In this document: piece by piece, positions 27,885 to 51,338 of the stretch
Layout of the letters: every line of letters begins with the position of its first letter
How positions within the stretch are numbered: position 1 is the first letter of the stretch
Assembly (NCBI GenBank): GCA_020848745.1
Contig: JADLHM010000077.1
Location: forward strand, 1-64,000
DNA length: 64,000 bases
Direction of reading: 5' to 3'
Source: Deltaproteobacteria bacterium
GTDB lineage: Bacteria; Desulfobacterota; Binatia; UTPRO1
Position numbers and translations under genes: made by a program
The notes under the pieces: model-generated
The model's database searches: none
What the model saw: the letters and a program-made list of their open reading frames with translations, nothing else
What the model was told of the DNA's origin: nothing

Positions 27885-29342
27885 ATGACGAACTCGCGAC
27901 CGACCGCTCCCCCCGGGACCGTCCTCTCGCTGCTCGACACCGCGGTCGCCCGCGGCGGGTCGCGCCGCGCCGTCGCCGACGAGCGCGAGACGCTCGACTA
28001 CGCGGGCCTCGCGGAACGGGTCGCCGCCGCGGCCGACGTTCTGGGCGCGGCGGGTCTCGGCGCGGGCGACTGCGTCGCCATCGCGCTCCCGACCTCGGTC
28101 GCCTTCGTCGAGACGTTCCTCGGCGTGCTCGCCGCCGGCGCGACGGCGTTTCCGGTGCCGCCGAGCGCGCGCCCGGACGAGCTCCGGCGGCTCTTCGGCG
28201 CAACGCGGGTCGACGCCCTCGTCGGCCGTCCGAACGACGAGCGCGCCGTGGCGCCGATCCGGCTCGCGATCGACGCGCGGGGCATGCGGGTCGCCGCCGC
28301 GAGCGCGTCGCCGGCGCCACCGCCGAGGGCCGCGCCGCCGCGGCCGACGGATCCCGCGCTCGTGGCCGCGACGTCCGGAACGCTCGCCCGTCCGCACCGG
28401 GTCGCGCGCACGCACGCGAACCTCTGGTGGGAAGCCGAGAACTTCCACGCGGCGACGCGCCTCGGCGCCGACGACGTGGTGCTCGGCGTCGTCCCGCTGT
28501 CGCACGCACACGGCCTCGGAAACGCGCTCCTCGCGGCGCTCCGAGCCGGCGCGAGCCTCGTGCTGCGGCCGCGCTTCCTGCGCCGCCAGGTTCTCGAACT
28601 CCTGGCGCACGAACGCGTCACCGTCTTTCCCGCCGTGCCCTTCATGCTGCGCATGCTGGCGGCGACCGACCGCCGCCGCCGCTTCGACCTCACCGCGCTC
28701 CGCCTGTGCCTGAGCGCCGGCGCGCCCCTGCCGTGCGACGTCTTCACCACGTTCCGCGAGCGCTTCGGCGTCGGCATCCGCCAGCTCTACGGACTGACCG
28801 AAGCAGGCAGCGTGACCTGCGATCTCGCTCGCGACGCGGAGATCGACCCGGCGACCGTCGGCCGGCCGCTCGGGAACGTCGTCGTCACGATCGAGGACGA
28901 GCGGGGACGGCCGCTCGGCGGGAGCGCGAGCGGCGAGATCGTCGTCCGGAGCCCGGCCGTGGCGGGCGGCCCGGAGACGCCGCTTCGCACCCGCGACCTC
29001 GGCCGACTCGACGCCGCCGGGCGGCTCGTCGTCAGCGGGCGCACGAGCGCCTTCATCAACACGGCGGGCAACAAGGTCGATCCCGCCGAGGTGGAAGCGG
29101 CGTTGCGCGCGCACCCCGCGGTCACCGACGTCGCGGTCTTCGGTCTCGCCGCCGCCCACGACGAGCAGGTGGTCGCGGCCGTCGTCGTGCTCGCGGCGGA
29201 GGCGACCGCCGACCAGCTCCGCGCGCATTGCCGCGAGCTCCTCGCCGCGCACAAGGTCCCTCGCGTCGTCACCTTCCGGGACGCCCTGCCGCGCTCGCCG
29301 CTCGGCAAGGTGCTGATCGGCCGGCTCCTCGCCGAGGCGTGA
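27885..29342 (+). CDS. AMP-dependent acyl/aryl ligase of the polyene-like cluster
   Basis: From ATG 27885 the protein has 485 residues (a GTG nine codons earlier is possible). It shows the adenylate-forming fold: LDYAGLAERV, PLSHAHGLGN, YGLTEAG (A5), GNKVDPAEVE (A8) and the C-terminal catalytic Lys in SPLGKVLIG. The A3 phosphate loop reads TSGTLARPHRVAR and lacks the usual TGxPKG Lys. In aryl-polyene clusters such an enzyme activates the aromatic or fatty starter and loads it on an ACP. The starter here is unknown. Confidence 0.85.
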   Translation: MTNSRPTAPPGTVLSLLDTAVARGGSRRAVADERETLDYAGLAERVAAAADVLGAAGLGAGDCVAIALPTSVAFVETFLGVLAAGATAFPVPPSARPDELRRLFGATRVDALVGRPNDERAVAPIRLAIDARGMRVAAASASPAPPPRAAPPRPTDPALVAATSGTLARPHRVARTHANLWWEAENFHAATRLGADDVVLGVVPLSHAHGLGNALLAALRAGASLVLRPRFLRRQVLELLAHERVTVFPAVPFMLRMLAATDRRRRFDLTALRLCLSAGAPLPCDVFTTFRERFGVGIRQLYGLTEAGSVTCDLARDAEIDPATVGRPLGNVVVTIEDERGRPLGGSASGEIVVRSPAVAGGPETPLRTRDLGRLDAAGRLVVSGRTSAFINTAGNKVDPAEVEAALRAHPAVTDVAVFGLAAAHDEQVVAAVVVLAAEATADQLRAHCRELLAAHKVPRVVTFRDALPRSPLGKVLIGRLLAEA

Positions 29343-29422
29343 CGTGCCCGACGCTCGTGCGCTGCCGCGCAGTGGGCGGACTGATTTGACACCGCCCCCT
29401 CGCCATTGTTGAGTCCGACCGC

Positions 29423-30226
29423 GTGGGTGTTCGATCTCCTCGCGTCGCGCCGCTCGCTCCGACCGAGCCGTTCGCGTCGCCGACGGCGCTCGCGGGACGA
29501 CGGGCGCTCGTGACCGGCGGTACCCGCGGCATCGGGCGGGCCATCGCGCTCGCCCTCGCGGCCGCCGGCGCCGACGTGACCGTCACCTGGGCGCACGCCG
29601 CCGGCGACGCCGAGCACGCCCGGAAGGATCTCGGGCGCGCCGGTGGCCGCCACGAGGTGCTCCGATGCGACGTCGCCAGCCCCGGAGCCGTCGCCGACCT
29701 CTTCCGCGACCGCACCGGCGACCGCGCTTTCGACATCCTCGTGAACAACGCCGCGATCACGCACGACGGGCACCTGATGATGCTCTCGGACGACGCGTGG
29801 AACGGCGTGCTGGCGACGAACCTGACGGGAGCGTTCCTCTGCCTCCGCCCCGCGCTCCGCGGCATGATCGCGCGCGGCTTCGGCCGCGTCGTGAACGTCG
29901 TGTCGCCGGCCGGGCTCATGGGCAAGGCGGGGGCCGCCAACTACGCCGCGTCGAAGGGCGGCCTCGTCGCCCTCACCCGCTCGCTCGCGGCCGAGGTCGC
30001 CGGCTTCGGCATCACGGTGAACGCGCTCTGTCCGGGCGTCGTCGACACGGCGATGATGGCGGGGGTGGCGAAGGAGGCGCGCGACGCGATGGCGGCTCGC
30101 ATCCCCGCGGGGCGCCCCGGACGTCCGGAGGAGGTGGCGCACGCCGCGCTCTTCCTCGCGCTGCCGCACGCCGCGTACATCACCGGAGCGACGCTCGCCG
30201 TCGACGGAGGATTGGTGACCGCATGA
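29423..30226 (+). CDS. 3-oxoacyl-ACP reductase (FabG-like) of the polyene-like cluster
   Basis: The 267-residue short-chain dehydrogenase has the NADPH loop VTGGTRGIGRAI (near residue 31), NNAAIT, and the triad Ser 161, Tyr 174, Lys 178 (YAASKGG). It ends in the typical FabG tail ITGATLAVDGGL. It would reduce the beta-keto group after each condensation. GTG 29423 gives a head of about 27 residues before the fold, so a later start is possible. Its stop overlaps the ACP start (ATGA). Confidence 0.92.
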   Translation: MGVRSPRVAPLAPTEPFASPTALAGRRALVTGGTRGIGRAIALALAAAGADVTVTWAHAAGDAEHARKDLGRAGGRHEVLRCDVASPGAVADLFRDRTGDRAFDILVNNAAITHDGHLMMLSDDAWNGVLATNLTGAFLCLRPALRGMIARGFGRVVNVVSPAGLMGKAGAANYAASKGGLVALTRSLAAEVAGFGITVNALCPGVVDTAMMAGVAKEARDAMAARIPAGRPGRPEEVAHAALFLALPHAAYITGATLAVDGGLVTA

Positions 30227-30498
30227 CGATGGATCGCGAGACGCTGAAGCGGAAACTGAAGGAGCTCTTGGTCTCGGGACTTCGCCTGCAGGACACCGAC
30301 GCGGCGAGCATCGCCGACGATCAACCGATCTTCGTCGAAGGCCTCGGGCTGGATTCGATCGACGCCCTGGAGCTGGTCGTCCTGATCGAGGAGCACTTCG
30401 GCCTCGCGATCCCCGACGAGGAGGTCGGGAAGAGCGCCTTCGCGTCGATCTCGGCGCTCGCCGACTACATCAGCGCCGAGCAGGCCCGTGCGGGGTGA
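30223..30498 (+). CDS. Acyl carrier protein 1 of the polyene-like cluster
   Basis: The 91-residue protein is a classic ACP: helix 1, then GLGLDSIDALELVVLIEEHF with the phosphopantetheine Ser 45, and IPDEEVGKSAFASISALADYI. It carries the growing chain between ketosynthase, reductase and dehydratase. The start overlaps the reductase stop and its end overlaps the ketosynthase start by 11 bp, so it is made in step with its partners. Confidence 0.94.
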   Translation: MTMDRETLKRKLKELLVSGLRLQDTDAASIADDQPIFVEGLGLDSIDALELVVLIEEHFGLAIPDEEVGKSAFASISALADYISAEQARAG

Positions 30499-31720
30499 GC
30501 CCACGGCGGGCGGCGGCGACGTAGTCGTCACCGGCCTCGGCACCGTGAACGCGCTCGCGTCCTCGGTCGACGCCTTCGCCGCCGCGCTCCGCGCCGGCAC
30601 CTGCGCCATCGGACCGGTCACGGGTTTCGACGCTTCCGGCTACCGGAGCCGGATCGCCGCCGAGGTGAAGGGCCTGGCGGCGCCCGATTGGCTGCCGCCG
30701 GCGCTCCGCCGGCGCGCCTCGCGCTCGGATCTCTTCGCGCTCGTCGCCGCCGCCGAGGCGCTGCGCGAGAGCGGGCTCGACGTCGCCGGCGCGCCCGCGC
30801 GCGTCGGCGTCGTGCTCGGCGCGACGACGGCCGGCATGATGGCCGCCGAGACCTCGCTGCATGCGCGCATCGCCGGCACCGCGCGGCGCTACCGCCGGAG
30901 CCGCCTCGTCGGAACGCCGATCGCGACGAGCGCCGACCTGCTCGCGCACGTGTTCGGCCTCGGCGGCCCACGGCTCGTCTTGAGCACGGCGTGCTCGTCG
31001 AGCGGCACCGCCCTCGGCGTCGCGCGCGACTGGATCCGGCTCGGACGCGCCGACGTCGTGCTCGCGGGCGGAACCGAGTCGATGTGTCGCACGATCTTCG
31101 CCGGCTTCAACGCGCTGAAGGCGCTGTCGCTCGAGCCCTGCCGCCCCTTCGACCGCCGACGCGCGGGTCTGAGCCTCGGCGAGGGCGCGGCGATCCTCGT
31201 CGTGGAGAGCGCGGCGCACGCCGCGCGCCGGAACGCGCGCGCGCACGCGACGATCCTCGGCTACGGCATGAGCGCCGACGCGCACCACCTGACGGCGCCG
31301 CACCCCGAAGGCACGGGCGCGGCGCTCGCGATGGAGCGCGCCCTCGCGCGCGCCGGCATCGCCGCGGAGGAGGTCGGCTACATCAACGCCCACGGCACCG
31401 GCACGCCGCTGAACGACGTCGTCGAAGCCGCCGCGATCGCGCGCGTCTTCGGCGAAGCCGCGGACCGGGTCGCGGTGAGCTCCACGAAGGCCGCGGTCGG
31501 CCACACCCTCGGCGCCGCCGGTGCGATCGAGGGGCTCACGAGCGTCCTCGCGCTCCGCGACGGGTTCCTGCCGCCGACCGTCAACCTCGACGAGCCCGAC
31601 CCCGCCTGCCGGCTCGATTTCGTCCCGCGTGCGAGCCGTCCGGCCGCCCTGCGCTACGCGCTCTCGAACTCGTACGGCTTCGGCGGCAACAACACGACCG
31701 TGGTGTTCGGCCGTGCCTGA
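30488..31720 (+). CDS. Beta-ketoacyl-ACP synthase, catalytically complete (KS)
   Basis: The 410-residue condensing enzyme has the intact Cys-His-His triad: Cys 169 in STACSSSG, His 302 in AHGTGTP and His 339 in VGHTLGAAG, plus the C-terminal NSYGFGGNN. It belongs to the FabF/KASII group and should perform decarboxylative condensation with malonyl-ACP. The next gene encodes a related but inactive ketosynthase and overlaps this one by 8 bp, so the two probably form a KS-chain-length-factor heterodimer. Confidence 0.93.
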   Translation: MRGEPTAGGGDVVVTGLGTVNALASSVDAFAAALRAGTCAIGPVTGFDASGYRSRIAAEVKGLAAPDWLPPALRRRASRSDLFALVAAAEALRESGLDVAGAPARVGVVLGATTAGMMAAETSLHARIAGTARRYRRSRLVGTPIATSADLLAHVFGLGGPRLVLSTACSSSGTALGVARDWIRLGRADVVLAGGTESMCRTIFAGFNALKALSLEPCRPFDRRRAGLSLGEGAAILVVESAAHAARRNARAHATILGYGMSADAHHLTAPHPEGTGAALAMERALARAGIAAEEVGYINAHGTGTPLNDVVEAAAIARVFGEAADRVAVSSTKAAVGHTLGAAGAIEGLTSVLALRDGFLPPTVNLDEPDPACRLDFVPRASRPAALRYALSNSYGFGGNNTTVVFGRA

Positions 31721-33002
31721 GACGGTCGTCGTGACGGGTGTCGGCGTGGTGAGTCCGCTCGGGTCGCAACCCGCGTTCTGGCGCAGGCTCTGCGCCGGCG
31801 AGACCGGCATCGCGCCCGTCGCCGACGCCGCCACTCCCGCGCCGCGCCTCGAGGCGCGGGCGCGCGACTGGAACGCGCGCGACCACGTGCGCCCGGCGGT
31901 GCTGCGGCGCATGGACCACTGCTCACGGATGATCGTCTCCGCGTGTCACATGGCCCTCGCGGACGCCGCCCTCCGCCTCGAAGGCCGCGCCGCCGCGGAG
32001 GCGGGCGTCGTCGTCGGGACGGCGTTCGGCGACCTGAGCGAGTCGGAGGACTTCCTGCGCGGGCTCTTCACGAAAGGCCCGGCGCTCGCGAACCCGCTCA
32101 CCTTCCCGAACCTCGTGTTGAACGCGCCCGCCGGCTACGCGGCAATCGATCTCGGCCTGCGCGGCCCGAATCTGACCGTCGTACGCGGCGAGGCCTCGGG
32201 CGAGGCCGCCCTCGCGCACGCGTACGACACGATCGTGACCGGCCAGGCCGACGTCCTGCTCGCGGGCGGGGGCGACGAGCTCGCGCCGATCCTGCGCGAG
32301 ATCTACCGCGACGCGGGGCTCCTCTCCCCCGATGACGGCGGCGAGGAATGGAGCAGCCCGTTCGATCGACGCCGGAACGGCTTCGTGATGGGCGAAGGCG
32401 CGGCCATCCTCGTCCTCGAGCGCGGGCGTCACGCGGCGGCGCGCGGCGCGCGCGTCCTCGCCGAGCTCGCGGGACACGTCGCCGAGAGCATCCCGGCAAG
32501 CCCGCACGACTGGCCGACGGCCGCCGCCGTCGGCGACGCCGCCGCGACGCGCCGCGGCCTCGCGGCGCTCGGCTTCCCGCCGGCGCCCGAGGCCGGCGCG
32601 CTCCTCGCCGTCTCCTCGGCGAACTCGACGGCGCGCCTCGACGCGACCGAGGCGGCGCGGCTCGCGGCGATCCTCGGCTCCGAGGCCGCGCGCGCGCTCG
32701 TCACCTCGGTGAAGGGCGCCGTCGGCGAATGGGGCTCCGCGGGAGCGCTCGCCGCGGTCGCGGCGGTCCTGGCGCTGGCGACGGGCGACGTGCCGCGCCT
32801 GGGCGCGCTCGGCGCGCCCGATCCAGATTGCACGCGCGACGCACCCGAGCCCGATCGCACGCGCGGCGCGCCCGACCGCGTCGGGACGCTCCGCTTCGCC
32901 GACCGCCACACGCCGGCGCCGCGCGCCGGCTTCGCGGCGGCGCTCGTCTCCGGTACGCCGCGCGGCGGCGGCGCCGTCACGCTGCTCTTTCGCCGCGCAT
33001 GA
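31713..33002 (+). CDS. Catalytically inactive ketosynthase homologue (chain-length-factor-like)
   Basis: From GTG 31713, which overlaps the preceding gene, the product has 429 residues with the ketosynthase fold (VVVTGVGVVSPLGSQPAFW, FDRRRNGFVMGEGAAILVLE). All three catalytic residues are missing: the Cys position reads Glu 160 in VVRGEASGEA, the HGTGTP region reads SSANSTARLD, and the GHT region reads KGAVGEWGSAG. Chain-length factors of type II PKS and the KS partner in aryl-polyene systems are inactive in the same way. It likely sets chain length or stabilises the KS. Confidence 0.85.
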   Translation: MPETVVVTGVGVVSPLGSQPAFWRRLCAGETGIAPVADAATPAPRLEARARDWNARDHVRPAVLRRMDHCSRMIVSACHMALADAALRLEGRAAAEAGVVVGTAFGDLSESEDFLRGLFTKGPALANPLTFPNLVLNAPAGYAAIDLGLRGPNLTVVRGEASGEAALAHAYDTIVTGQADVLLAGGGDELAPILREIYRDAGLLSPDDGGEEWSSPFDRRRNGFVMGEGAAILVLERGRHAAARGARVLAELAGHVAESIPASPHDWPTAAAVGDAAATRRGLAALGFPPAPEAGALLAVSSANSTARLDATEAARLAAILGSEAARALVTSVKGAVGEWGSAGALAAVAAVLALATGDVPRLGALGAPDPDCTRDAPEPDRTRGAPDRVGTLRFADRHTPAPRAGFAAALVSGTPRGGGAVTLLFRRA

Positions 33003-33646
33003 CGCCGGCCGTCCCGCGCACGCGGCGCGCCGCCACGCTCCTCGCGATCGCAACCGCGACGCTCGCCGTCATCGCGGCGCGGACGGCCGCCGAGGACGCC
33101 GCGCCGACCCTCGCCACCCGCGCCGCGCGTTTTCCGACCGTCGAGCGCGCGACCGCGGATTTCGTGCAGGAGCGGGAGGTGTCGCTCGTCGACGAGGTGC
33201 TGCACGCGCGGGGAACGCTCGCGCTCGCCGCGCCGGCGTCGTTCCGCCTCGACTTGACGGAGCCCGAGCCCATGACGCTCGTCGCCGCCGGCGCCGCCAT
33301 GACGGTCGTGGACGCCGCGGGAAAGGCCATGCCGGTGCCGGCCGAGTTCACCGGGCTCGCCGCGTTCGCGCGCACCTTGACGGACCTGCTCCTCGGGACG
33401 CGCGCGCCGCGCGGATTCACCGAGACGTGGCGCGACGCCGACACGGTCGTGTTGACACCGGCGACCGACACTGCGAGCCCGTTCAGCGAGATCATGCTGC
33501 GCTTCCGTTTCGACGGCCCGCTGCCGGAGACGATCGCCATGCGCGAACGCGGCGGCGACCGCACCACCATCCGCCTCGGACACGTCGTCCTGAATCCCGC
33601 GCTCGACCCGGCGCGCTTCGCGCTCCCGGCGATGAAAGGCTCCTGA
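32999..33646 (+). CDS. LolA-like periplasmic carrier protein
   Basis: The 215-residue product has an Arg-rich head and a hydrophobic signal segment (residues 10-30) followed by an outer-membrane lipoprotein carrier fold: RATADFVQEREVSLVDEVLHARG, cut here to FVQEREV and HARGTLAL, then FRLDLTEPEP and a C-terminal strand DRTTIRLGHVVLNP. LolA-type genes are a regular part of aryl-polyene clusters, where they are thought to move the lipid product across the periplasm. Start overlaps the preceding stop (ATGA). Confidence 0.82.
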   Translation: MTPAVPRTRRAATLLAIATATLAVIAARTAAEDAAPTLATRAARFPTVERATADFVQEREVSLVDEVLHARGTLALAAPASFRLDLTEPEPMTLVAAGAAMTVVDAAGKAMPVPAEFTGLAAFARTLTDLLLGTRAPRGFTETWRDADTVVLTPATDTASPFSEIMLRFRFDGPLPETIAMRERGGDRTTIRLGHVVLNPALDPARFALPAMKGS

Positions 33647-33650
33647 ATCG

Positions 33651-34103
33651 ATGTCGACCACCCGCATCGCGAGCACCGGCGACTCGGCCGCCGCCTTCCT
33701 CCCGCACACACCGCCCTTCCTCCTGCTCGATCGCATCGTCGCGATCGACGGCCCGTCGGGGCGTTTCGTGAAGCACGTCACGGCCGCGGATCCGCTGATC
33801 GGACCCGCGGGCGAGCTCTCGCCGATGCTCCTCGTGGAGGCGATGGCGCAGGGCGCCGGGATCGTCCTCGGCTGCCAGGAGCCGGAACTCCGCGCCCGCG
33901 GCGCCGTGCTCGCCGCGATCGACCACTGCGCGATCGCCGGCACCGCCGGGATCGGCGACGCGCTCGAGGTCGAGATCACCGTCGTACGCCGCTACGCCGG
34001 CATGGCGCGCATCAAGGCGCGTGCGAGCGTCGGCGCGCGCACCTGCGCGACCGCCGCGCTCACGCTCGCGTTCCCGCGGGGAACGAGCACGGCGGCCGAG
34101 TGA
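33651..34103 (+). CDS. 3-hydroxyacyl-ACP dehydratase-like hotdog protein
   Basis: The 150-residue single hotdog domain matches FabZ-like dehydratases: FLPHTPPFLLLDRI with catalytic His 19 and SPMLLVEAMAQGAGI with the catalytic acid Glu 63. It would remove water from the beta-hydroxy intermediate. Repeated action without an enoyl reductase, which is absent from the cluster, would give a conjugated polyene. It follows the LolA gene by 4 bp and overlaps the lipoprotein gene (GTGA). Confidence 0.87.
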   Translation: MSTTRIASTGDSAAAFLPHTPPFLLLDRIVAIDGPSGRFVKHVTAADPLIGPAGELSPMLLVEAMAQGAGIVLGCQEPELRARGAVLAAIDHCAIAGTAGIGDALEVEITVVRRYAGMARIKARASVGARTCATAALTLAFPRGTSTAAE

Positions 34104-34843
34104 TCCGCGTGGCGCCGCGCCGGCGCGCGCTCGCCTTCGCGGCGGGGTGCCTCGTCGCGGCGGCCGCCGTGTCGGGATGCGCGCGCCTCGTGACCCGGCC
34201 GGCCCGCGTGACGGCGCACGGCGCCGGCGCGATTGTCGCCGCCGGCGCCGCTCGCGAGCGCGCGCTCGCGGGGCTACGGCTCACGCTCTCGGTCCGCGCC
34301 ACCGCGGGACCGCCCGCCGCGCGGCTCGCCGCTCCGGCCTACCTCGCGATCGACGACCCCGAGCATCTGCGCTTGCAGGTGCTTTCGCCCTTCGGTCCGA
34401 CCGTCCTCGACCTCACGACCGACGCCGACACGTTCACGCTCACGCTGCCGATGCGGGGCGAGACCCGCCGCGGCGCGATCGATCCCGCGGCGCTCGCCGC
34501 CGGCGCGACGCCCGAGGACGAGCGCATGATCGTGGCGCTCGCGCTGCTCTTCCGTCCGAAGATGGATCACCGGCGCTGCCGCGCGGCCGGGCCCGCGGCG
34601 GTGAGCTGCGCGCTCACGGCCGGCCTCACCGTCACGACCACGGTCGACGAGGCGCTCCGCCCGGTGCGCGAGGCCTACCTCGGACCCGGCGGGCGCCCGC
34701 TCTTCACGGCCGTGCTCGAGGACTACGGGGGCACCGGACCGTCCGCGCTCCCCGGACGCATCACGATCTCGGGAGACGCCGGCGACGCCGCGCTCGTCAT
34801 CCGCGTCATCAAGGTGCGTCGTCCTGAGGAGTCCGCTACGTGA
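34100..34843 (+). CDS. LolB-like / DUF4292 lipoprotein of the polyene-like cluster
   Basis: From GTG 34100 the 247-residue protein has a lipoprotein signal (VAPRRRALAF, hydrophobic run, lipobox AVSGC, Cys near residue 28) and a LolB-type body with LRLQVLSPFGPTVLDL. The same block occurs in the lipoprotein at 8723-9559, so the two are paralogues. With the LolA-like neighbour it suggests delivery of the product to the outer membrane. Aryl-polyene clusters often include a DUF3261-type lipoprotein in this place. Confidence 0.78.
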   Translation: MIRVAPRRRALAFAAGCLVAAAAVSGCARLVTRPARVTAHGAGAIVAAGAARERALAGLRLTLSVRATAGPPAARLAAPAYLAIDDPEHLRLQVLSPFGPTVLDLTTDADTFTLTLPMRGETRRGAIDPAALAAGATPEDERMIVALALLFRPKMDHRRCRAAGPAAVSCALTAGLTVTTTVDEALRPVREAYLGPGGRPLFTAVLEDYGGTGPSALPGRITISGDAGDAALVIRVIKVRRPEESAT

Positions 34844-34916
34844 GGTCGCCCACCCGGAAAAAATCGCCTTTTCGCCTTTCGCCAAGGTCCGCCGCCGCGC
34901 TACGCTGGACCCCTCC

Positions 34917-36845
34917 ATGGCCCCCGCACCGGCTGCCGCTCCGCTCCTGCGATCCCGCATGTCGTTTGCGGGCACGCTGATCGCCGCCCTGCTCCTCGCC
35001 GTACCGGCCGGCGGCACCGAGAGCCTGCCGCCCGCGACCCCGCGCATCGTGAACGGCGTGCTCAGCGCCGACCATCCGTCGGTCGGCGCGCTGCTCCGCG
35101 GCTCGACTCCGAACGACGCGGGCACCTGGTGCTCCGGCACCCTCATCGGCTGCTCGACGTTCCTCACGGCCGGGCACTGCGTCGAAGGCCGGTCCCCGTC
35201 CGAGCTCTTCGTCTACCTGCCGCACGCGGGGATCTTCCCGGTCGCGAGCATCGCGCAGCATCCCGGTTACGATTTCCCCGCCGCCGACGTCGCGGTGGTG
35301 AAGCTCGCCACGCCCGTCGAGGGCGTCGCGCCGACCGCGATCGAGACCTCGTCCGCGCCGCCGTTCGGTACGCCGGGCACGATCGTCGGATACGGCCGGG
35401 CCGGCGACCCGCTCTACGACTACGGTCTCAAGCGCGCGGGCAGCGTCGTCACCGCCTCGTGCACGACCATCCCCGCGCCCGGGTCGAACAGCACGTCCGT
35501 CTGCTGGGACTTCACCGAGCCGAAGGGCGCGCCGGGGACGGACTCGAACACCTGCAACGCCGACTCCGGCGGACCGCTCTTCGTCGATCTCGGCGGCGGT
35601 GCGCGCGTCGCCGGCATCACCTCGGGAGGATCGAGCTCGAGCTGTCAGCCGATGGATCACAGCTACGACGCCAACGTCTTCACCTACCGCGCGTTCATCC
35701 AGACCGAGGGCGGCGCCGACCTCGCGAACACACGTTGCGGCGGCGGCCCCCAGATCGGCGAGCCGGGAGCGCTCGCCCTCGCGTTCGACGGGTCCGTGAG
35801 CGGCGCCGTCCCCGACGCGACGCACGCCTTCACGGTCGGCAACGGCACCACGACGCTCAGCGTGGCGATGAACGCCGTCGACGACGGCGTCGGCGACTTC
35901 GACCTCTACGTGAAGGCCGGAAGCCCGCCGACGACGAGCGACTTCGATTGCGCCCGCGCCGGACCGAACCAGTACGGCGTCTGCACGATCGCCTCGCCCG
36001 TGCCGGGCCCGTGGTACGTGCTCGTACACCGCTACGCCGGCGCGGGCACGTACCAGGTGACGGCGACGCAGCTCGGCACGTCGTGCTCGCTGCCCGGCAG
36101 CGACGGCACCCCGTGCGACGACGGCAATCCGTGCACGAGCGCGGATGTCTGCCTGGCGGGCGCGTGCGGCGGCACCGCCGCCGGCGACGGCGCGCCATGC
36201 AGCGACGGCAACGACTGTACCGGTCCCGACACCTGCCAGAGCGGCGCGTGCGGCGCAGCGCCGCTCGCGAACGGCACGCCGTGCGACGACGGCGACCCGT
36301 GCAGCCGCCCCGATGCCTGCCAGGCCGGCGTCTGCACCGGCGTGTCCCCGGCGACGACGTGCAAGGTCGTCCCGGCGGGCGCGGCGCTGCTCTCGCTCGA
36401 CAATCGCAGCCCGGACTCGCGCGACCGCTTCGCGTGGACGTGGCGCAAGGGCTCGGCGACGAGCCACGGCGACCTCGGCAACCCGCTCACCGCGACCTCG
36501 TACGCGCTCTGTCTCTACGACACCGTCGGCGGCGTCCCGCAACGCCGGCTCTCCAAGGTGATCCCGGCCGGCCCGCTCTGGAAAGCGTACTCGCGCGGCT
36601 TCCGCTTCCACAACGCCACCCTCTCGACGGGCGGCATCCAATCCGTCGCGCTGACCGAAGGCCTCGCCGGCAGGTCGAGCGTGCACGTGCGCGGCAAGGG
36701 CGCCCCACTTGCGCTGCCCACCCTCCCGCTGGCGAAACAGCCGAGCGTGACCGTCCAGCTCCTGAACGACACGGCCTGCTGGACATCGACCCACACGATC
36801 GCGACCACCAACAACCTCGCCAAGTTCAGGGCGAAGAGTCAGTAG
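34917..36845 (+). CDS. Secreted trypsin-like serine protease with PPC-like and Cys-rich repeat domains
   Basis: The 642-residue secreted protein has a signal peptide (to about residue 38) and a trypsin domain starting at RIVNGV with His 87 (TAGHC), Asp 124 (AADVAVVKL) and Ser 217 (CNADSGGP). A pre-peptidase C-terminal-like domain follows (VDDGVGDFDLYVKAG, about 300-385). Next come three Cys-rich repeats of the CDDGNPCTSADVC type (about 395-480) and a C-terminal domain of about 160 residues that I cannot name. Its place inside the polyene-like cluster is unexplained; it may be an unrelated insertion or modify an envelope partner. Confidence 0.88.
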   Translation: MAPAPAAAPLLRSRMSFAGTLIAALLLAVPAGGTESLPPATPRIVNGVLSADHPSVGALLRGSTPNDAGTWCSGTLIGCSTFLTAGHCVEGRSPSELFVYLPHAGIFPVASIAQHPGYDFPAADVAVVKLATPVEGVAPTAIETSSAPPFGTPGTIVGYGRAGDPLYDYGLKRAGSVVTASCTTIPAPGSNSTSVCWDFTEPKGAPGTDSNTCNADSGGPLFVDLGGGARVAGITSGGSSSSCQPMDHSYDANVFTYRAFIQTEGGADLANTRCGGGPQIGEPGALALAFDGSVSGAVPDATHAFTVGNGTTTLSVAMNAVDDGVGDFDLYVKAGSPPTTSDFDCARAGPNQYGVCTIASPVPGPWYVLVHRYAGAGTYQVTATQLGTSCSLPGSDGTPCDDGNPCTSADVCLAGACGGTAAGDGAPCSDGNDCTGPDTCQSGACGAAPLANGTPCDDGDPCSRPDACQAGVCTGVSPATTCKVVPAGAALLSLDNRSPDSRDRFAWTWRKGSATSHGDLGNPLTATSYALCLYDTVGGVPQRRLSKVIPAGPLWKAYSRGFRFHNATLSTGGIQSVALTEGLAGRSSVHVRGKGAPLALPTLPLAKQPSVTVQLLNDTACWTSTHTIATTNNLAKFRAKSQ

Positions 36846-36904
36846 GGGTCCGGCGGGGGGCGCCCGCGGTTGTCGCGATCCGGACGCTTGTGTAGACGCT
36901 TCGG

Positions 36905-38185
36905 ATGCGCGGCTTGCGAGTGGCGATCGTCGGGGCCGGCCCCGCGGGCGCCGCGGTCGCGACGCTCCTCACCCGCGAGGGCCACGACGTCGTCCTCTTC
37001 GACGACGAGCGCCGCCCCGAGCTCGTCGTCGGCGAGTCGTTGATCCCGGCGGGAATCCCGCCGCTTCGCCGTCTCGGCGTCGAGGACGCCGTCGCCGCGA
37101 TCGGCATGCACAAGCCGGGCGCGACGCTCACGTGGTCGCCGAGTCACCGTTTCGCCTTCCGCTTCGCCCGCTATCGCTCGTGGATGGTGCCGTACGCCTA
37201 CAACGTGCCGCGCCGCGAGTTCGACGCGCTCCTGCTGGCGCGCGCCGAGGCGGTCGGGGCGCGGCGCCTGACCATGCGGGCCGGGCTCGTCCCTGGAGGC
37301 GCCGACGGCGCCGAGCTCGCGCTCGCGCCGGACGCGCTCGCAGCGACCGGCTGGCCGGCGCCGGATCTCGTCGTCGACGCGACGGGGCGCGCGCGCGTCT
37401 CCGCGCGGCTCCTCGCGATCCCGGCCACGACGGGTCCGCGAAACGACGTCGCCTATTTCGCCCACTTCACCGGCTGGCACTGGAGCGAGGAGCCCGGCCA
37501 GGTGCTGATCGATCGCGTCGAGGGGGGCTGGAGCTGGCGCATCCCGCTGAACGACCGGCTCTCGCTCGGCGTCGTCCTGAGCCGCGCCGCGGCCGCCCGC
37601 TTGGGCGCGACGCCCGAGGAGCGTCTCGCCGGCGCAATCGCCACGCACGACGCGCTCGCGGCGACCGTCGCCGGCGCGCGGCGGACGACCGGAGTCGCCA
37701 CCTACGGCAACTATCAGCTGATCTCGACCCGCGGCGTCGGGCCCGGGTGGGCCGCCGTCGGTGACGCGTTCGGCTTCGTCGACCCGATGCTGTCACCGGG
37801 CGTGATGGTCGCGCTGCGCTCGGCCGAAATGCTGGCGGCGCGTCTCGCGCCGTGGCGGCGCTCCCGCGACGGCGCCGATCCCGCCGCGCTCGCAACAGCG
37901 CTCGCGCCCTACACGCGCGAGCTCGGACACCTCCTCGGCGCGTGGATGGAGCTCGTCGGCTACCTCTACGACGGCCGGATGCTCGCGCTCTTCCGCGCCG
38001 GCTCCGACATGATGACCGAGCGCGGCGGACGCTTCGCCCAGGCGCTGCAGAACCACATCGAGGCGAACATCGCCGGCCTCGCTTCGGGCACGTCGATCAC
38101 CTCGCGTTACAGCCTCGGGCTCCTCCGCTTCCTCGGTCGCCACGGCCTGCGCGGCGTGGCTCCCGAGGCGCTCGCCATTCGGTGA
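36905..38185 (+). CDS. Flavin-dependent halogenase-like oxidoreductase
   Basis: The 426-residue flavoprotein has the FAD motif VGAGPAGAA (near residue 9), VGESLIP, Lys 70 in GMHKPGATLTW, the W209-S-W211-R-I-P motif and GDAFGFVDPMLSPG. The WxWxIP motif and the conserved Lys are hallmarks of tryptophan-halogenase-type enzymes, which chlorinate or brominate aromatic rings; xanthomonadin clusters carry a related gene. Some family members only oxidise or reduce their substrate. It is 59 bp after the protease gene and overlaps the second ACP gene. Confidence 0.8.
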   Translation: MRGLRVAIVGAGPAGAAVATLLTREGHDVVLFDDERRPELVVGESLIPAGIPPLRRLGVEDAVAAIGMHKPGATLTWSPSHRFAFRFARYRSWMVPYAYNVPRREFDALLLARAEAVGARRLTMRAGLVPGGADGAELALAPDALAATGWPAPDLVVDATGRARVSARLLAIPATTGPRNDVAYFAHFTGWHWSEEPGQVLIDRVEGGWSWRIPLNDRLSLGVVLSRAAAARLGATPEERLAGAIATHDALAATVAGARRTTGVATYGNYQLISTRGVGPGWAAVGDAFGFVDPMLSPGVMVALRSAEMLAARLAPWRRSRDGADPAALATALAPYTRELGHLLGAWMELVGYLYDGRMLALFRAGSDMMTERGGRFAQALQNHIEANIAGLASGTSITSRYSLGLLRFLGRHGLRGVAPEALAIR

Positions 38186-38451
38186 AGGCGATGACGCCGC
38201 CGCCGTCCGTCGAGGCCGTCGCGGCCGCGATCGTCCGCTTCCTCAACACCGAGATCATGGCGCCGAGCCATCCGATCGGCGCCGACGACGCGCTCGCGGA
38301 CGCCGGCGTCGACTCGATGGCGCTGCTCAAGGTGCTGGTGTTCCTCGAGCGCGAGATCGGCGTCTGGGTGTCCGACGAGGACCTCACGGACGACATCGTG
38401 CGGTCGGCGCGCTCGCTCGCGACCTACGCCTGCACGCGCGCAACGTCGTGA
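38182..38451 (+). CDS. Acyl carrier protein 2 of the polyene-like cluster
   Basis: I use GTG 38182, which overlaps the flavoprotein stop like other gene pairs here; ATG 38191 is an alternative. The 89-residue product has the ACP pattern GVDSMALLKVLVFLE with phosphopantetheine Ser 45 and a C-terminal helix RSARSLATYA. Aryl-polyene clusters usually have two ACPs, one for the starter and one for extension. The next gene starts in its stop codon (GTGA). Confidence 0.85.
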   Translation: MKAMTPPPSVEAVAAAIVRFLNTEIMAPSHPIGADDALADAGVDSMALLKVLVFLEREIGVWVSDEDLTDDIVRSARSLATYACTRATS

Positions 38452-39752
38452 GCGCGCCGCCGCGCGCGGTCGAGCTGCTCGGTCCCGACGTCGTCCTGCT
38501 GGCGATGGAAACGCTCGCGGCGGGCCGCGCCGCGAGCAGCAACGCCGTCCTCGTGCTGGAGCTCGACGCGCCGATAGCGACCGCGCGCGTCGCGGCGGCG
38601 CTCACGCGCTTCCTTCCCGTCTGTCCGTGGCTCGGCGGACGCCTCCACCGGCCGTTCCCGTGGGGAAAGCTCCGGTGGCGCGTACCGCGCGGCGGCCCGA
38701 CGGCAATCCCGGTCGCGACGGCGAATGCCGGAACCGCCGGCCTCGCGGCCCTCGTCGACCGCGAGCTCGCGACGCCGATCGACCCGCGCCGCGAGCCGCC
38801 GCTCCGCGTCACGGTCGCCGCCGACACGACGGGCGGCGTGCTCGTCCTCACGTGGGCCCACGCGCTCATGGACCCGCACGGCGCCGAGCACCTCGTCCGC
38901 CTCCTCGCCGCCCTCGACGCGGCGCCCGGTCGCGTGCCCTGGTCGGCGCCGCCGCTTCTCACGACGCCGCGCGACCCCCGTACGCTCCGCGAGCGCGGTG
39001 CCCTCGCGAGCCGCGGCGCCGCCGCGCTCCGCGCGTGCGCGCTGGTCCCGCCGCGCGCGCTCGCGAGCGTACCGACAGCGCGCGCTCCGGCGCGGACGCG
39101 CCGCCGCCACTGGCGATTCCGCTTCGCCGCGCGTCCCGACGGTGAAGACCGGAGCCGGCGCGGCATGCCATGGCGGCTCGCGGTCGTCGCGGCCGCGATG
39201 ACCGAGCTCTTCCGGCGCCGCGGCATCCCGGTCGACGTCCCGTTCCTCGTGCCGGTCTCCGTAGAGCGGCGGGCGCGCGGCGAGCATGGACCGATCCTCG
39301 GAAACCAGCTGGCCTTCCACTTCGCGCGCGTCCCGCCGCCGGAGAGCGGCGACCCCACGGCGAGCGCGCGCGCGATCCGCGACGGCCTCGCCGAGGCGGT
39401 CCGCCGCGACGAGCTCGAGGCGATGGCGGCCGGCATGAGCTTCGCCCGCCTGCGGCCGCTCCGCGGCATGTTCCGCGAGCTGCCCTGGGCGCGCGGCGGC
39501 GACGTCTGCTCCTTCCACTTCGCCGACACCGATGCACTCCTCCCCGATGTCACCCGCGCGTTCGGTGCGGCGATCGTCGGCGGCTACCACGTCGCCGCCG
39601 TCCCGGCGCGTCCGGGCGCCGGCGTCTTCTTCACCCGTCACGGCGCGACCGAGAGCCTCGTCGTCAGCGCCGCGGACGAGGTCGTGACCGGCGAGGACGC
39701 GGAGACGATCGCGGCCGTCGTGGCGCGCGCGATGGAGTGGACGCGCCGCTGA
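38448..39752 (+). CDS. Condensation/WES-type acyltransferase
   Basis: The 434-residue protein has the fold pattern of CoA- or ACP-dependent acyltransferases: LTWAHALMDPHGAEHL contains the catalytic His 138 and Asp 142 of the HxxxD motif, and a later LVPVSVERRARGEHGPILGNQ resembles the latch region of this superfamily. It lacks the first His of HHxxxDG (Ala here). It could transfer the finished acyl chain from the ACP to an alcohol or lipid acceptor. It is the last gene of the cluster, before a perfect hairpin. Confidence 0.8.
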   Translation: MSAPPRAVELLGPDVVLLAMETLAAGRAASSNAVLVLELDAPIATARVAAALTRFLPVCPWLGGRLHRPFPWGKLRWRVPRGGPTAIPVATANAGTAGLAALVDRELATPIDPRREPPLRVTVAADTTGGVLVLTWAHALMDPHGAEHLVRLLAALDAAPGRVPWSAPPLLTTPRDPRTLRERGALASRGAAALRACALVPPRALASVPTARAPARTRRRHWRFRFAARPDGEDRSRRGMPWRLAVVAAAMTELFRRRGIPVDVPFLVPVSVERRARGEHGPILGNQLAFHFARVPPPESGDPTASARAIRDGLAEAVRRDELEAMAAGMSFARLRPLRGMFRELPWARGGDVCSFHFADTDALLPDVTRAFGAAIVGGYHVAAVPARPGAGVFFTRHGATESLVVSAADEVVTGEDAETIAAVVARAMEWTRR

Positions 39753-39756
39753 CGGG

Positions 39757-39797
39757 GCCGCGGGTGGGCGCCGCTCCGGACGGCGCCCACCCGCGGC
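39757..39797. terminator. 17-bp perfect hairpin ending the polyene-like cluster
   Basis: Arms 39757-39773 and 39781-39797 pair perfectly around a 7-base loop, 4 bp after the acyltransferase stop and 3 bp before the end of the convergent gene. It has no T-run. It resembles the hairpin at 24985-25023 and probably terminates both genes. Confidence 0.6.
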
Positions 39798-39800
39798 GTG

Positions 39801-40814
39801 CTACGGCGTCACGTCGTCCGCGACGAGCGTCGGCGCGGCGCCGCCCGGCGTCGTCACGATGAAACGGTACTTGCCGCCGCCGCACCCGTTTCCGCCGTTC
39901 GCACGCACCGCCACGTAGAACGTGCCGCTGAACGGCAGCGTGCGCTGGAACTGCGGGCACGACGTCCCGCAGGTGTTCGGCACCGAGCACGGCACCGAGT
40001 TCACGAGCGTGTCGGCGACGGGCGTCGTCTGGTCGGAGCCGAAAAGGATGACGGTCGGCTCGAGCGTCGACTGCCCGCTGCCAGTGTCGTCGCGGGTCTT
40101 CACCCGCACGATGACCTTGTCGCCGGCCTGTCCGGTGATGGACCAGAGATCCACCTTCCCGGCCGCGGGCAGATCCTCGCGGAGCTTGTACGTCACCGGC
40201 AGGTCCGGAAACGCCGATTGGAGGTTCGCGACGCGCGCCGCATCGCTCGCCCGCGGGCTCAGCAGGCCACTGATCTGGTCGATCAGCTGACGCTGCAGCG
40301 GGCCGCCGAGACAGTTCATGAGGTTCAGGAGGTTGCAGGTGTACCCCGCGTCGAGCGCGAGGCAGCCGGCATTCACGAGCGCGAAGTTGAGGCCGTTTCC
40401 CTGCGCGCCGCAGAGCTCGTCCTGTGAGAGGTCGATGCACGCCGCGACGATCTTGTTCTGCTTCGTGGTCTCGTAGCCGGCGATCTTCTGCTCGCGCTCC
40501 GCACAGAACGCGTCCGCTGCCGTCATGCAGTCGTTGAACGCCGCGTTCGACCCGCGGTCGTCCGAGTCGCAGCACGGAGGCGAGCCGTCGTCGCAGGACG
40601 GGCCGAAGACGCCCTCGTCGCACTGGACCTGGCACTCCGCGACCTCTTCGGTGCACTTGAGCGTCTCGACGATGACGCGCTTCGCGAAATCCGCGCCGGC
40701 AGTGGCGAGCTTCTTCTGACAACGGGCGACCGACGTGATGTCGGCCGCGGCGGGCTGGACGAGCGCGAACAGCAGCGCCACCCCGGCAACGACGACTCGG
40801 GCATTGCTTCTCAT
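39801..40814 (-). CDS. Secreted Cys-rich protein with C-x21-C-x6-C module and PPC-like domain
   Basis: The 337-residue protein has a clear signal peptide (cleaved after about residue 24, PAAADI). The N-terminal half is Cys-rich; it opens with ARCQKKLATAG, with cysteines spaced C-x21-C-x6-C, and also has CDDGSPPCCDS. The C-terminal half resembles a pre-peptidase C-terminal beta domain (WSITGQAGDKVIVRV, FSGTFYVAVRANGG). The same Cys spacing opens the protein at 54333-55553. No enzyme motif is seen; a cell-surface or secreted structural role is likely. Confidence 0.8.
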   Translation of the reverse strand: MRSNARVVVAGVALLFALVQPAAADITSVARCQKKLATAGADFAKRVIVETLKCTEEVAECQVQCDEGVFGPSCDDGSPPCCDSDDRGSNAAFNDCMTAADAFCAEREQKIAGYETTKQNKIVAACIDLSQDELCGAQGNGLNFALVNAGCLALDAGYTCNLLNLMNCLGGPLQRQLIDQISGLLSPRASDAARVANLQSAFPDLPVTYKLREDLPAAGKVDLWSITGQAGDKVIVRVKTRDDTGSGQSTLEPTVILFGSDQTTPVADTLVNSVPCSVPNTCGTSCPQFQRTLPFSGTFYVAVRANGGNGCGGGKYRFIVTTPGGAAPTLVADDVTP

Positions 40815-43578: not shown

Positions 43579-43678
43579 CGTACCCTCCCCTCGTCTTGAG
43601 TCCTGGCGCGGCGCCGCGCGCCCCGATCCGTTCCTGAACCCGCGCGCGCCGTTTTGCAAACCGCCGCGCGACCCGGGC

Positions 43679-48578: not shown

Positions 48579-48622
48579 CTCTCACCTGGCCTCCGCCGTG
48601 AGCGACGTGGATCTGGTGCGAG

Positions 48623-49894
48623 ATGCGGGATAGCCAGAGGGCCGTGTCCGAACGGCGGTACGACGTGGTCGTGGTGGGCGGGGGCACGGCCGGCGTCGCG
48701 GCGGCCGTCGCGGCCGCGCGCGCGGGCGCCCGGACGTTGCTGCTCGAGCGCTACGGCTTCCTCGGCGGCATGGCGACCGCCGGCATGGTCGGGACGGTGT
48801 GCGGCCTCTACTTGGCGCACGCCGACGGCCGCTCCGAGCGGTTGAACGCGGGGCTCGCCGGCGAGATCGCGGACGCGATCGAGCGCCTGCCGGGCAGCGC
48901 GCCGCCGCTGCGGCGCGGCCGGACGATCGTCGTCCCCTACCTCCCCCACGAGCTCGCTGCCCTCGCCGACGATCTCACGGACGCCGAGCCGATGCTTGAC
49001 GTGCGGCTGCACGCGTACGTCGCGGGCGTCGAGCGCGACGGGGCGGCGGTCGCGGCAGTGCGCTTCGCGGACGCCGACGGGACGCGCGCGGTCGCCTGCG
49101 GCGCCCTCGTCGACGCGAGCGGAGACGCGATCGCCGCGCTCGCCGCCGGCGCGCCGACCGACGCGCCGCCGCCGGCCGAGCGCCAGCTCTGCTCGCTCGT
49201 GTTCGCGCTCCAAGGCGTCGACGCCGAGGCGCTGCGCGGACCGGAGAGCCTGGCGCTGCTCCGCCGCCTCGCCGCCGCCGAAGCGGCGGGAACGCTATCC
49301 GCCGGCGCGAGCGACGTCGCCTGGCGACCGACCGGACGTCCGGGCGAGGTCGCCGTGAAGCTCGCGCTCCACGCGGTCGACGCCGGGCCGCGCGGCGACT
49401 TCCTGACCGCCGCCGAGCGCGCCGGACGGCGGCGGATGCGCGCGCTCGTCGCCGCGCTCCGCGCCGAGTCGCCGGCGTTCGCGGCGGCGTTCGTCTCGCA
49501 GGTGGCGCCGCAGGTCGGCGTGCGTGAGAGCCGGCGCATCGTCGGGCGCCGCCGGCTCACCCGCGAGGACGTGCTCGGCGGCCGCCGCTTTCCCGACGCG
49601 ATCGCGCGGGCGGCGTGGCCGATCGAGCTCTGGCGCGAGGGCGCGACGGGCGCGCGCTTCGAGCACCTGGCCGACGGCGACTGGTACGAGATCCCGCTCG
49701 ACTGCCTCCGCGCCGTCGACCTCGGGAACATCCTCGCCGCCGGACGCTGCCTCAGCGGCACGTCGGAGGCCCTCGCCTCGGCCCGCGTGATCGGCACCTG
49801 TCTCGCGACCGGCGCCGCGGCGGGCGCGGCGGCGGCGCGCCTCGCCGGCGCCGCCGCGCCCGCATCCGGCACGACGACGAGCGGCGGCGCGTGA
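48623..49894 (+). CDS. FAD-dependent oxidoreductase
   Basis: The 423-residue protein has the FAD-binding DVVVVGGGTAGVAAAVAAAR (residues 14-33), a second block LERYGFLGGMATAGM and the C-terminal IPLDCLRAVDLGNILAAGRC typical of the FAD_oxidored (PF12831) family. These enzymes act on varied substrates; some are polyketide- or metabolite-modifying. It is divergent from the GltD-like gene (44 bp apart), and its stop overlaps the AMP-ligase start. No substrate can be named. Confidence 0.85.
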   Translation: MRDSQRAVSERRYDVVVVGGGTAGVAAAVAAARAGARTLLLERYGFLGGMATAGMVGTVCGLYLAHADGRSERLNAGLAGEIADAIERLPGSAPPLRRGRTIVVPYLPHELAALADDLTDAEPMLDVRLHAYVAGVERDGAAVAAVRFADADGTRAVACGALVDASGDAIAALAAGAPTDAPPPAERQLCSLVFALQGVDAEALRGPESLALLRRLAAAEAAGTLSAGASDVAWRPTGRPGEVAVKLALHAVDAGPRGDFLTAAERAGRRRMRALVAALRAESPAFAAAFVSQVAPQVGVRESRRIVGRRRLTREDVLGGRRFPDAIARAAWPIELWREGATGARFEHLADGDWYEIPLDCLRAVDLGNILAAGRCLSGTSEALASARVIGTCLATGAAAGAAAARLAGAAAPASGTTTSGGA

Positions 49895-51276
49895 GCCTCG
49901 GCGACCTCCTGCACGCGAGCGCCGTACGCCACGGCGCGCGCCCCGCGATCACCGAGGTCGCCGCCGGCCGCACGCTCGACTACGCCGAGCTCGCGGCGCG
50001 CGCGGACACGGCCGCCGCGGCGCTCCGGTCCGCGGGCGTCGCCGCCCCGCACCGGATCGCGCTCCTCGGGACGAGCTCGCTCGCGTACGTGGCCGTCGCC
50101 TTCGGCATCCTCGCGGCCGGCGGCTGCCTCGTGCCGATCGCCGCCAACGTACGTGATGCGGAACGGGACGAGATCTTCCGCACCATCGACGTGAACGGCG
50201 TCGTGGCCGTCCCCGACGACGGCGGCGACTGGAGCTTCGCGTGGCTCGACCGCGCGCGCCGGCCGCCCGAAGGGTTCGCCGCACTCGATCCGGCGTTCGT
50301 CCGCTTCAGCTCCGGCACCACGGCCGACGCCAAGGGCGTCGTCCTCTCGCACGCCGCGACGCTCGCGCGCATCGCCGCGGCCGACGCGGTGCTGCGCCTC
50401 GCCCCCCACGACCGCATCCTCTGGACCCTGCCCCTCGCCTATCACTTCGCGGTCACGATCCCGTCGTACGTCCGCGCCGGCGCGCACGTGCTGCTCGCGC
50501 CGGAGTCGACACCCGCCACGATGGCGGCGGCGCTCGCCGCGCACGAAGCGACCGTGCTCTACGCCTCGCCGGTGCTCCTCGCGCGCCTCGCCGCGCTCGC
50601 GGCGCCGCCGCGGCTCCCGGCGCTCCGCCTCGCGCTCTCGACCGCCGCCCCGCTGGCACCCGACGTCGCGCGGCGCTTCGATGCCGCCTACCGCGTCCCG
50701 CTCGGGCAGGCGTACGGCATCATCGAGGCCGGGCTCGCCTGCATCAACACGCGCCAGGGCGCCGACCGCGACCTACCGGCGGCGTCGGTCGGCCGCCCCG
50801 TCCCCGGCTACGAGGTCGCCACGTTCGCCGACGACGAGGTCGGCGTCCGCGGCCCCGGGCTCTTCGACGCCTACTACGCGCCCTGGCGGCCGCGCGCCGA
50901 GGTGCTGCGCGACGGCTGGTTCATGACAGGCGACGTCGGCACCGTCGACGCGGCGGCCGCGCTCACGCTGCGCGGACGTCGCAAGTCGACGATCGTCGTC
51001 GCCGGCTTGAAGCTCTTTCCCGAGGAGGTCGAGGCCGTCCTCGCCGCGCATCCAACGGTCGCCGAGTCGCGCGTGGTCGCGCGCCCGCACCGCGCGCTCG
51101 GCGAGCTGCCGCATGCCGAGATCGTGCTCCGGCCGGGCACGCGCTTCGATCGCGACGCGCTCGCGCGCCACTGCGCCGCGCGCCTCTCGCCCTGGAAGAT
51201 GCCGGTCACCTACACCGTCGTGGCGGCGATCCCGAAGACACCGGGCGGGAAGATCCTGCGACGCCCCGAGGGATGA
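49891..51276 (+). CDS. AMP-dependent acyl-CoA/aryl ligase
   Basis: From GTG 49891 (in the preceding stop, GTGA) the protein has 461 residues with all adenylation motifs: FSSGTTADAKGVVLSH (A3, Lys present), QAYGIIEAG (A5), FMTGDVG (A7), GRRKSTIVVAGLKLFPEEVE (in part) and the catalytic Lys in TPGGKILRR. It activates an acyl or aryl acid as an adenylate. The tight overlap with the flavoenzyme gene suggests they act on the same compound. It is not closely similar to the ligase at 27885. Confidence 0.88.
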   Translation: MSLGDLLHASAVRHGARPAITEVAAGRTLDYAELAARADTAAAALRSAGVAAPHRIALLGTSSLAYVAVAFGILAAGGCLVPIAANVRDAERDEIFRTIDVNGVVAVPDDGGDWSFAWLDRARRPPEGFAALDPAFVRFSSGTTADAKGVVLSHAATLARIAAADAVLRLAPHDRILWTLPLAYHFAVTIPSYVRAGAHVLLAPESTPATMAAALAAHEATVLYASPVLLARLAALAAPPRLPALRLALSTAAPLAPDVARRFDAAYRVPLGQAYGIIEAGLACINTRQGADRDLPAASVGRPVPGYEVATFADDEVGVRGPGLFDAYYAPWRPRAEVLRDGWFMTGDVGTVDAAAALTLRGRRKSTIVVAGLKLFPEEVEAVLAAHPTVAESRVVARPHRALGELPHAEIVLRPGTRFDRDALARHCAARLSPWKMPVTYTVVAAIPKTPGGKILRRPEG

Positions 51277-51338
51277 CGCCGGGAGCGGCGGGGCGCAGGG
51301 AAGCTCCGCGCGGTTGGCTCCCGGCTGCGACACGCGAT

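Follow-up and report, generated by a model that had tools for sequence, protein, structure and literature searches.

A directional run of genes at positions 27885-39752 of a 64,000-nucleotide stretch of Binatia DNA (contig C77, 1-64000; hereafter the window) probably joins two systems, namely an aryl-polyene-like variant of a highly reducing type II polyketide synthase (PKS) and an accessory five-gene tailoring cassette, which is split in this genome. The genome, G000, measures 4.88 Mb, is 99.5% complete and belongs to UTPRO1, an order within the Binatota (PMC8262859). The pigment survey of the Binatota covers carotenoids, and the terms aryl and polyketide are absent from its text (PMC8262859); a 2021 report, to its authors' knowledge the first account of Binatota biosynthetic gene clusters, describes two nonribosomal peptide synthetase (NRPS) clusters and one terpene cluster (PMC8692599). 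For comparison we used two congeners of G000 (G001 and G002) and three further genomes of the same family (G003, G004 and G005), of which G004 and G005 represent the sister genus g3.

All genes that the initial annotation had named in this run were recovered on the plus strand by domain searches, motifs and, for the LolB-like protein, a structural model (Table 1). The core, 27885-34843, comprises an AMP-forming ligase (LIG), a short-chain dehydrogenase/reductase (SDR), an acyl carrier protein (ACP1), an active ketosynthase (KS), a dead KS partner or chain-length factor (CLF), a LolA-like carrier, a dehydratase (DH) and a LolB-like lipoprotein, and its genes are tightly packed, with overlaps or gaps within about 80 bp. 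LIG opens the core in five relatives, and its best PDB relatives are feruloyl-CoA synthetase, oxalyl-CoA synthetase and 4-coumarate-CoA ligase. The AlphaFold2 model of the LolB-like protein (predicted local distance difference test, pLDDT, 79) matches LolB with a Z score of 13 and LolA-superfamily structures with Z scores of 14-15. The order LIG-SDR-ACP-KS-CLF-LolA-DH-LolB is kept in both congeners (KS 84-90% identical) and in G004 and G005 (KS about 70%), and these orthologous gene orders show that the run is not a chance assembly. For G003, LIG, ACP, KS, CLF and DH were recognised, and the interval separating CLF from DH yielded no LolA. A search for promoters and terminators gave no sigma-70-like site, and terminator-like sites were no more frequent than expected by chance.

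In a careful KS/CLF phylogeny of 59 rows, the window KS falls into a 24-row clade (99/98) together with Escherichia coli ApeO, the ApeO-like KS of G003, a Streptomyces type II KS and representatives from Binatia, Desulfobacteria and Nitrospirota; outside this clade lie FabF, ApeR and the other KSs of G000. The window CLF groups with CLFs of Binatia, Desulfobacteria and Nitrospirota (100/93), and ApeC formed a very long separate branch in an earlier tree. The combination of an active KS and a dead counterpart, placed in the tree away from FabF, is the arrangement of a highly reducing type II PKS. That the pair are FabF paralogues engaged in ordinary accessory fatty acid synthesis, a concern already raised in the initial annotation, is very improbable on this evidence: the KS does reach 407 bits against FabF models, but their cut-off is 494, the tree separates it from the FabF rows, and the CLF has lost all three catalytic residues, the corresponding positions reading Glu-Ser-Glu. 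Furthermore, separate FabF-like genes exist on contigs C13 and C43 of G000, and the ligase, LolA and LolB-like genes occupy the same tightly packed run as the KS and CLF.

Membership of the known aryl-polyene (APE) families was assessed with NCBIfam and Pfam models. Against the ApeO-type model PRK09185 the window KS scores 342 bits and misses the cut-off of 407 (E. coli ApeO, 556; the ApeO-like KS of G003, 472), and against the ApeR-type model PRK09116 it scores 261 bits, the cut-off being 470 (E. coli ApeR, 779). No ApeC-type short CLF (PF13723) exceeds the cut-off in G000, the window CLF reaching 20.4 bits against 25; G003 has one at 191 bits. ACP1 comes to 69.0 bits against the ApeE-type model PRK09184, with a cut-off of 70 (E. 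coli ApeE, 89.5). Compared with the apeA-R cluster of E. coli CFT073, the window shares the iterative KS and CLF, a ketoreductase, DH, ACP, AMP-ligase, LolA-like and LolB-like proteins, the lack of an enoyl reductase and a KS in the ApeO clade; its ACP1 falls just short of the ApeE-type model. It differs in its CLF, which is full length, carries a Cys-to-Glu exchange and is not a PF13723 ApeC, and in its ligase, which is unlike ApeH; an ApeR-type KS, ApeJ, ApeD, a thioesterase and MMPL are missing from the window locus. In its predicted working the core is an APE-like system, yet it fails the KS and CLF tests by which such systems are defined. Of the divergent APE cluster first proposed, the part that stands is that KS and CLF form a divergent polyene-type system separate from FabF, and the part that does not is membership of the ApeO/ApeC or ApeR types, whose models it missed.

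Xanthomonadin and flexirubin clusters also contain ketosynthases, a LolA-like protein and a halogenase-like flavoenzyme, as does the window. Compared through family models alone, the window LolA and SDR match flexirubin models below threshold (LolA2 model, E 3e-9 for the LolA-like protein), and the window differs in having neither a XanB2-type chorismatase over the cut-off nor an exporter. A separate observation concerns contig C133 of G003 (loci L041 and L103), where an ApeO-like KS, an ApeC-type CLF (PF13723), GT2-like, lipid A-type acyltransferase and LolA-like proteins and MMPL are encoded beside a window-type core. Canonical and window-type KS/CLF pairs coexist in this one G003 locus.

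According to the mechanism that we favour, 27885-34843 would encode a highly reducing type II PKS that acts iteratively, in the way known from aryl-polyene synthesis. LIG would activate a carboxylic acid and load it onto ACP1, after which the KS-CLF pair would extend it with malonyl-ACP, and in each round the SDR would reduce and the DH dehydrate the growing chain. The chain would remain a conjugated polyene, because the locus holds no enoyl reductase. LolA and the LolB-like lipoprotein could then shuttle the completed, hydrophobic product to the outer membrane. Both of these transport proteins are present in the window, as in Ape clusters, and for E. coli the proposed APE transport set consists of ApeL (LolA-like), ApeM (RND) and ApeN (LolB-like) (PMC8253772).

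In agreement with the initial annotation, no enoyl reductase, linked RND/MMPL exporter or glycosyltransferase was identified within 27885-39752. No exporter gene is linked to the core in the window's genus, and the LolA/LolB trafficking genes are in place; the absence of an exporter does not hold as a trait of the whole subtype, since in G004 and G005 MMPL directly follows LolB and is accompanied by a C45 family protein. In the window's genus the exporter has therefore been lost, relocated or replaced, and the inner-membrane step may be performed there by an unlinked gene or in another way. Two matches elsewhere in G000 were rejected. The best MMPL match (31%, contig C25) lies beside ExbB/ExbD-like genes and is unconvincing as the missing exporter, and a C45/AAT homologue (29% identity, contig C110) stands beside NRPS-like genes and was judged unrelated.

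Downstream of the core, the run continues with a halogenase- or hydroxylase-type flavoenzyme (HAL), a second carrier protein (ACP2) and a putative acyltransferase (AT), which the initial annotation had taken as parts of one polyene cluster. These three belong to an independent cassette of five genes found in Binatia; the remaining two, an FAD oxidoreductase (FADox) and a second AMP-ligase (LIG2), lie outside the run that was first described. All five are grouped in G003, G004, G005, G008, G023, G047 and G054, frequently accompanied by a phytoene-desaturase-like gene; contig ends of G043 and G035 carry AT, FADox and LIG2, and in G031 the set is HAL-ACP2-AT-LIG2. In the window and in G002 the cassette is split, with FADox-LIG2 about 9 kb beyond AT. 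G001, a congener of about 90% protein identity, has neither 36867-39762 nor 48536-51368 of the window, and at each site the flanking sequences meet to within about 20 bp. The 9 kb between the two missing blocks is kept in G001 and its core is complete; this genome is 89% complete, and both absences fall inside a single 85 kb contig. Linked to the core in the UTPRO1 family and independent elsewhere, the cassette is therefore an accessory unit.

These distributions also bear on the reading of the whole run as a single halogenated aryl-polyene cluster, in which HAL would act on the aryl head, ACP2 would be a second polyene ACP and AT would attach the polyene to a lipid anchor. Adjacency in the window and in G002 speaks for it, as does the position of the cassette, which in the three family genera where it can be placed lies downstream of the core and no more than about 13 kb away: the distance is about 2 kb in G000 and G002 and 7 kb in G004, and it comes to about 13 kb in G003 provided that contigs C164 and C133 adjoin (they share no exact overlap and were placed together only as both seem to contain a piece of a single MMPL gene). 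HAL-type flavoproteins of about 35% identity also occur in other Binatia KS/CLF clusters (L054, L045 and L152). Nevertheless, the cassette genes occur without a core-type CLF in G008, G023, G043, G047 and G054, G001 keeps the full core without HAL-ACP2-AT, and the cassette possesses its own ligase and ACP. We set the single-cluster reading aside on account of the cassette's occurrence without the core and its absence from G001, and consider it improbable.

As for the chemistry of the accessory cassette, a conserved Lys and the Trp-x-Trp-x-Ile-Pro motif play a role in flavin halogenases. HAL has the FAD fold, the motif and a Lys at position 70, and the Lys, both Trp, the Ile and the Pro are invariant in eight homologues. 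It shares the motif and the Lys position with the carrier-bound halogenases CmlS, ChlB4 and PltA and with the hydroxylase QhpG, and it lies near an ACP; it stays below the CmlS cut-off (107 bits against 900), and the QhpG model scores higher (121 bits against a cut-off of 240). Since its best NCBIfam model is a hydroxylase, halogenation by HAL, and with it the halogenated pigment suggested at first, is no more than a possibility. The H-x-L-x-D motif of AT is invariant in its relatives, and AT matches no family clearly, the match to the NRPS AmbB profile being weak (E 0.009) and the AlphaFold2 model too poor to use (pLDDT 43). Carrier-bound chemistry would fit the repeated HAL/ACP partnership: LIG2 might charge ACP2 with a small acid, which HAL, and perhaps also FADox, could oxidise or halogenate there, and AT might pass the modified acid to an acceptor, possibly the polyene lipid.

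Several observations weigh against this two-part interpretation. The cassette halves lie 9 kb apart in the window, and in other families core and cassette are each found without the other. The core has neither a thioesterase nor an acyl-anchor enzyme linked to it, and the lack of an enoyl reductase is judged for the locus only. An aromatic ammonia lyase (PF00221), for which the initial annotation had proposed a search, was found in none of the six UTPRO1-family genomes, and neither was UbiC (PF04345); a chorismatase match to TIGR04444, present in three of the family genomes, reaches 58 bits against 325 and is a Rid-like protein, so that it was rejected as an aryl source. Since there is no ammonia lyase or UbiC and the chorismatase match is Rid-like only, an aryl starter is not supported from within the genome; other sources are possible.

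The missing aryl source at the same time favours an alternative in which the core yields not an aryl polyene but fatty acyl chains of polyunsaturated or ladderane-related type, with LIG activating a fatty acid starter. The top NCBIfam model of LIG, under its cut-off, is a long-chain fatty acid ligase. In Brocadiales, KS/CLF relatives belong to a cluster that also contains phytoene-desaturase-like and B12 radical SAM genes and is similar to the proposed ladderane cluster; for the synteny of the latter with Desulfotalea, a polyunsaturated fatty acid route was the explanation given (PMC2649909). The Brocadiales tandem is of the same broad kind as that of the window, but its CLF mostly has Val at the Cys site and its KS and CLF branch separately, outside the window's groups. 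Moreover, B12 radical SAM or desaturase-like genes were not recognised beside the core in G001-G005, nor among the window genes at 27885-39752. Finally, a related pair is associated with aromatic ammonia lyase, as four Desulfobacteria-type loci (L122, L123, L125 and L126) encode KS, CLF, ligase and ammonia lyase. Their KSs are 49-51% identical to the window KS, and their CLFs are recognisably related and bear the same Glu signature; unlike in the window, the ammonia lyase is present, and no LolA, SDR or ACP was recognised beside them. The linkage of ligase and ammonia lyase suggests aryl priming in the Desulfobacteria branch. In the flanks of the Desulfosarcina widdelii genes no cluster was seen. 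Weighing these points, we regard the fatty acyl alternative as unlikely.

Returning to the aryl-polyene-like core and its accessory cassette, we speculate, with little confidence, that full-length Glu-type CLFs could mark a second aryl-polyene lineage apart from ApeC, found in Binatia and Desulfobacteria, and in Nitrospirota as an Asp variant, and that the UTPRO1 pigment could be esterified with a halogenated acyl group, the product of a five-gene ligase-ACP-halogenase-acyltransferase cassette subject to gain and loss. A KS/CLF lineage with its own CLF signature, combined with LolA/LolB here and with aromatic ammonia lyase in Desulfobacteria, would widen the range of polyene lipids to include uncultured groups, and the jointly absent split cassette provides a defined five-gene set for assay.

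Table 1. Genes of the core and the cassette, and the protease gene between them, with window coordinates.
Gene	Coordinates	Strand	Product	Supporting features
LIG (core gene 1)	27885..29342	+	AMP-forming acyl/aryl ligase	PF00501 (E 1e-71), PF13193
SDR	29423..30226	+	FabG-like beta-ketoacyl reductase	PF13561 (SDR/FabG-like match E 2e-58); NF009466 FabG subfamily over cut-off; start codon uncertain
ACP1	30223..30498	+	Acyl carrier protein	PF00550; start inferred from overlap with SDR stop
KS	30488..31720	+	Active ketosynthase	PF00109/PF02801; Cys-His-His kept
CLF	31713..33002	+	Dead full-length KS partner	Cys to Glu; start inferred
LolA-like	32999..33646	+	Periplasmic carrier (compare ApeL)	PF03548 (E 7e-14)
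DH	33651..34103	+	Hotdog 3-hydroxyacyl-ACP dehydratase	FabZ model E 2e-16, under cut-off; PF07977 weak
LolB-like	34100..34843	+	Lipoprotein (compare ApeN)	No Pfam match; predicted structure; lipobox-like ...SGC at N-terminus
Trypsin-like	34917..36845	+	Secreted trypsin-like protease with PPC domain	PF00089, PF04151
HAL (cassette gene 1)	36905..38185	+	FAD-dependent halogenase- or hydroxylase-type enzyme	PF04820 (E 2e-20)
ACP2 (cassette gene 2)	38182..38451	+	Carrier protein	PF00550 (E 3e-7); adjoins AT in 8 relatives
AT (cassette gene 3)	38448..39752	+	Putative HxxxD (condensation-like) acyltransferase	Invariant H-x-L-x-D..G
FADox (cassette gene 4)	48623..49894	+	FAD oxidoreductase	PF12831 (E 3e-87); between AT and LIG2 in 9 relatives
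LIG2 (cassette gene 5)	49891..51276	+	Second AMP-ligase	PF00501; 40-61% homologues beside AT in relatives

The protease gene between core and cassette, missing from the initial list, probably does not belong functionally to the core; we rejected it as a cluster member, as its homologues in G004 and G005 show no such linkage and it belongs to a family with many members throughout the class. Its C-terminal part of about 240 residues recurs in many proteins per genome across the Binatia and is possibly a sorting or anchoring domain. Among related loci, other Binatia KS/CLF pairs (L051, L139, L054, L045 and L044) are accompanied by radical SAM, isocitrate-dehydrogenase-like or B12 radical SAM proteins that were unseen in the UTPRO1-family core. 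Around the Nitrospirota pairs (L129, L138 and L150) there are several genes for B12 radical SAM and phytoene-desaturase-like proteins, a setting much like that in Brocadiales, and Asp stands at the CLF site in both cases checked. Further along the window, two predicted proteins without Pfam families are encoded on the minus strand (39801-40814 and 42511-43932) and are conserved in G001. A predicted open reading frame of VGVAVGV-type repeats lies at 54409-55401 on the plus strand, where the congeners are less alike than in the surroundings.

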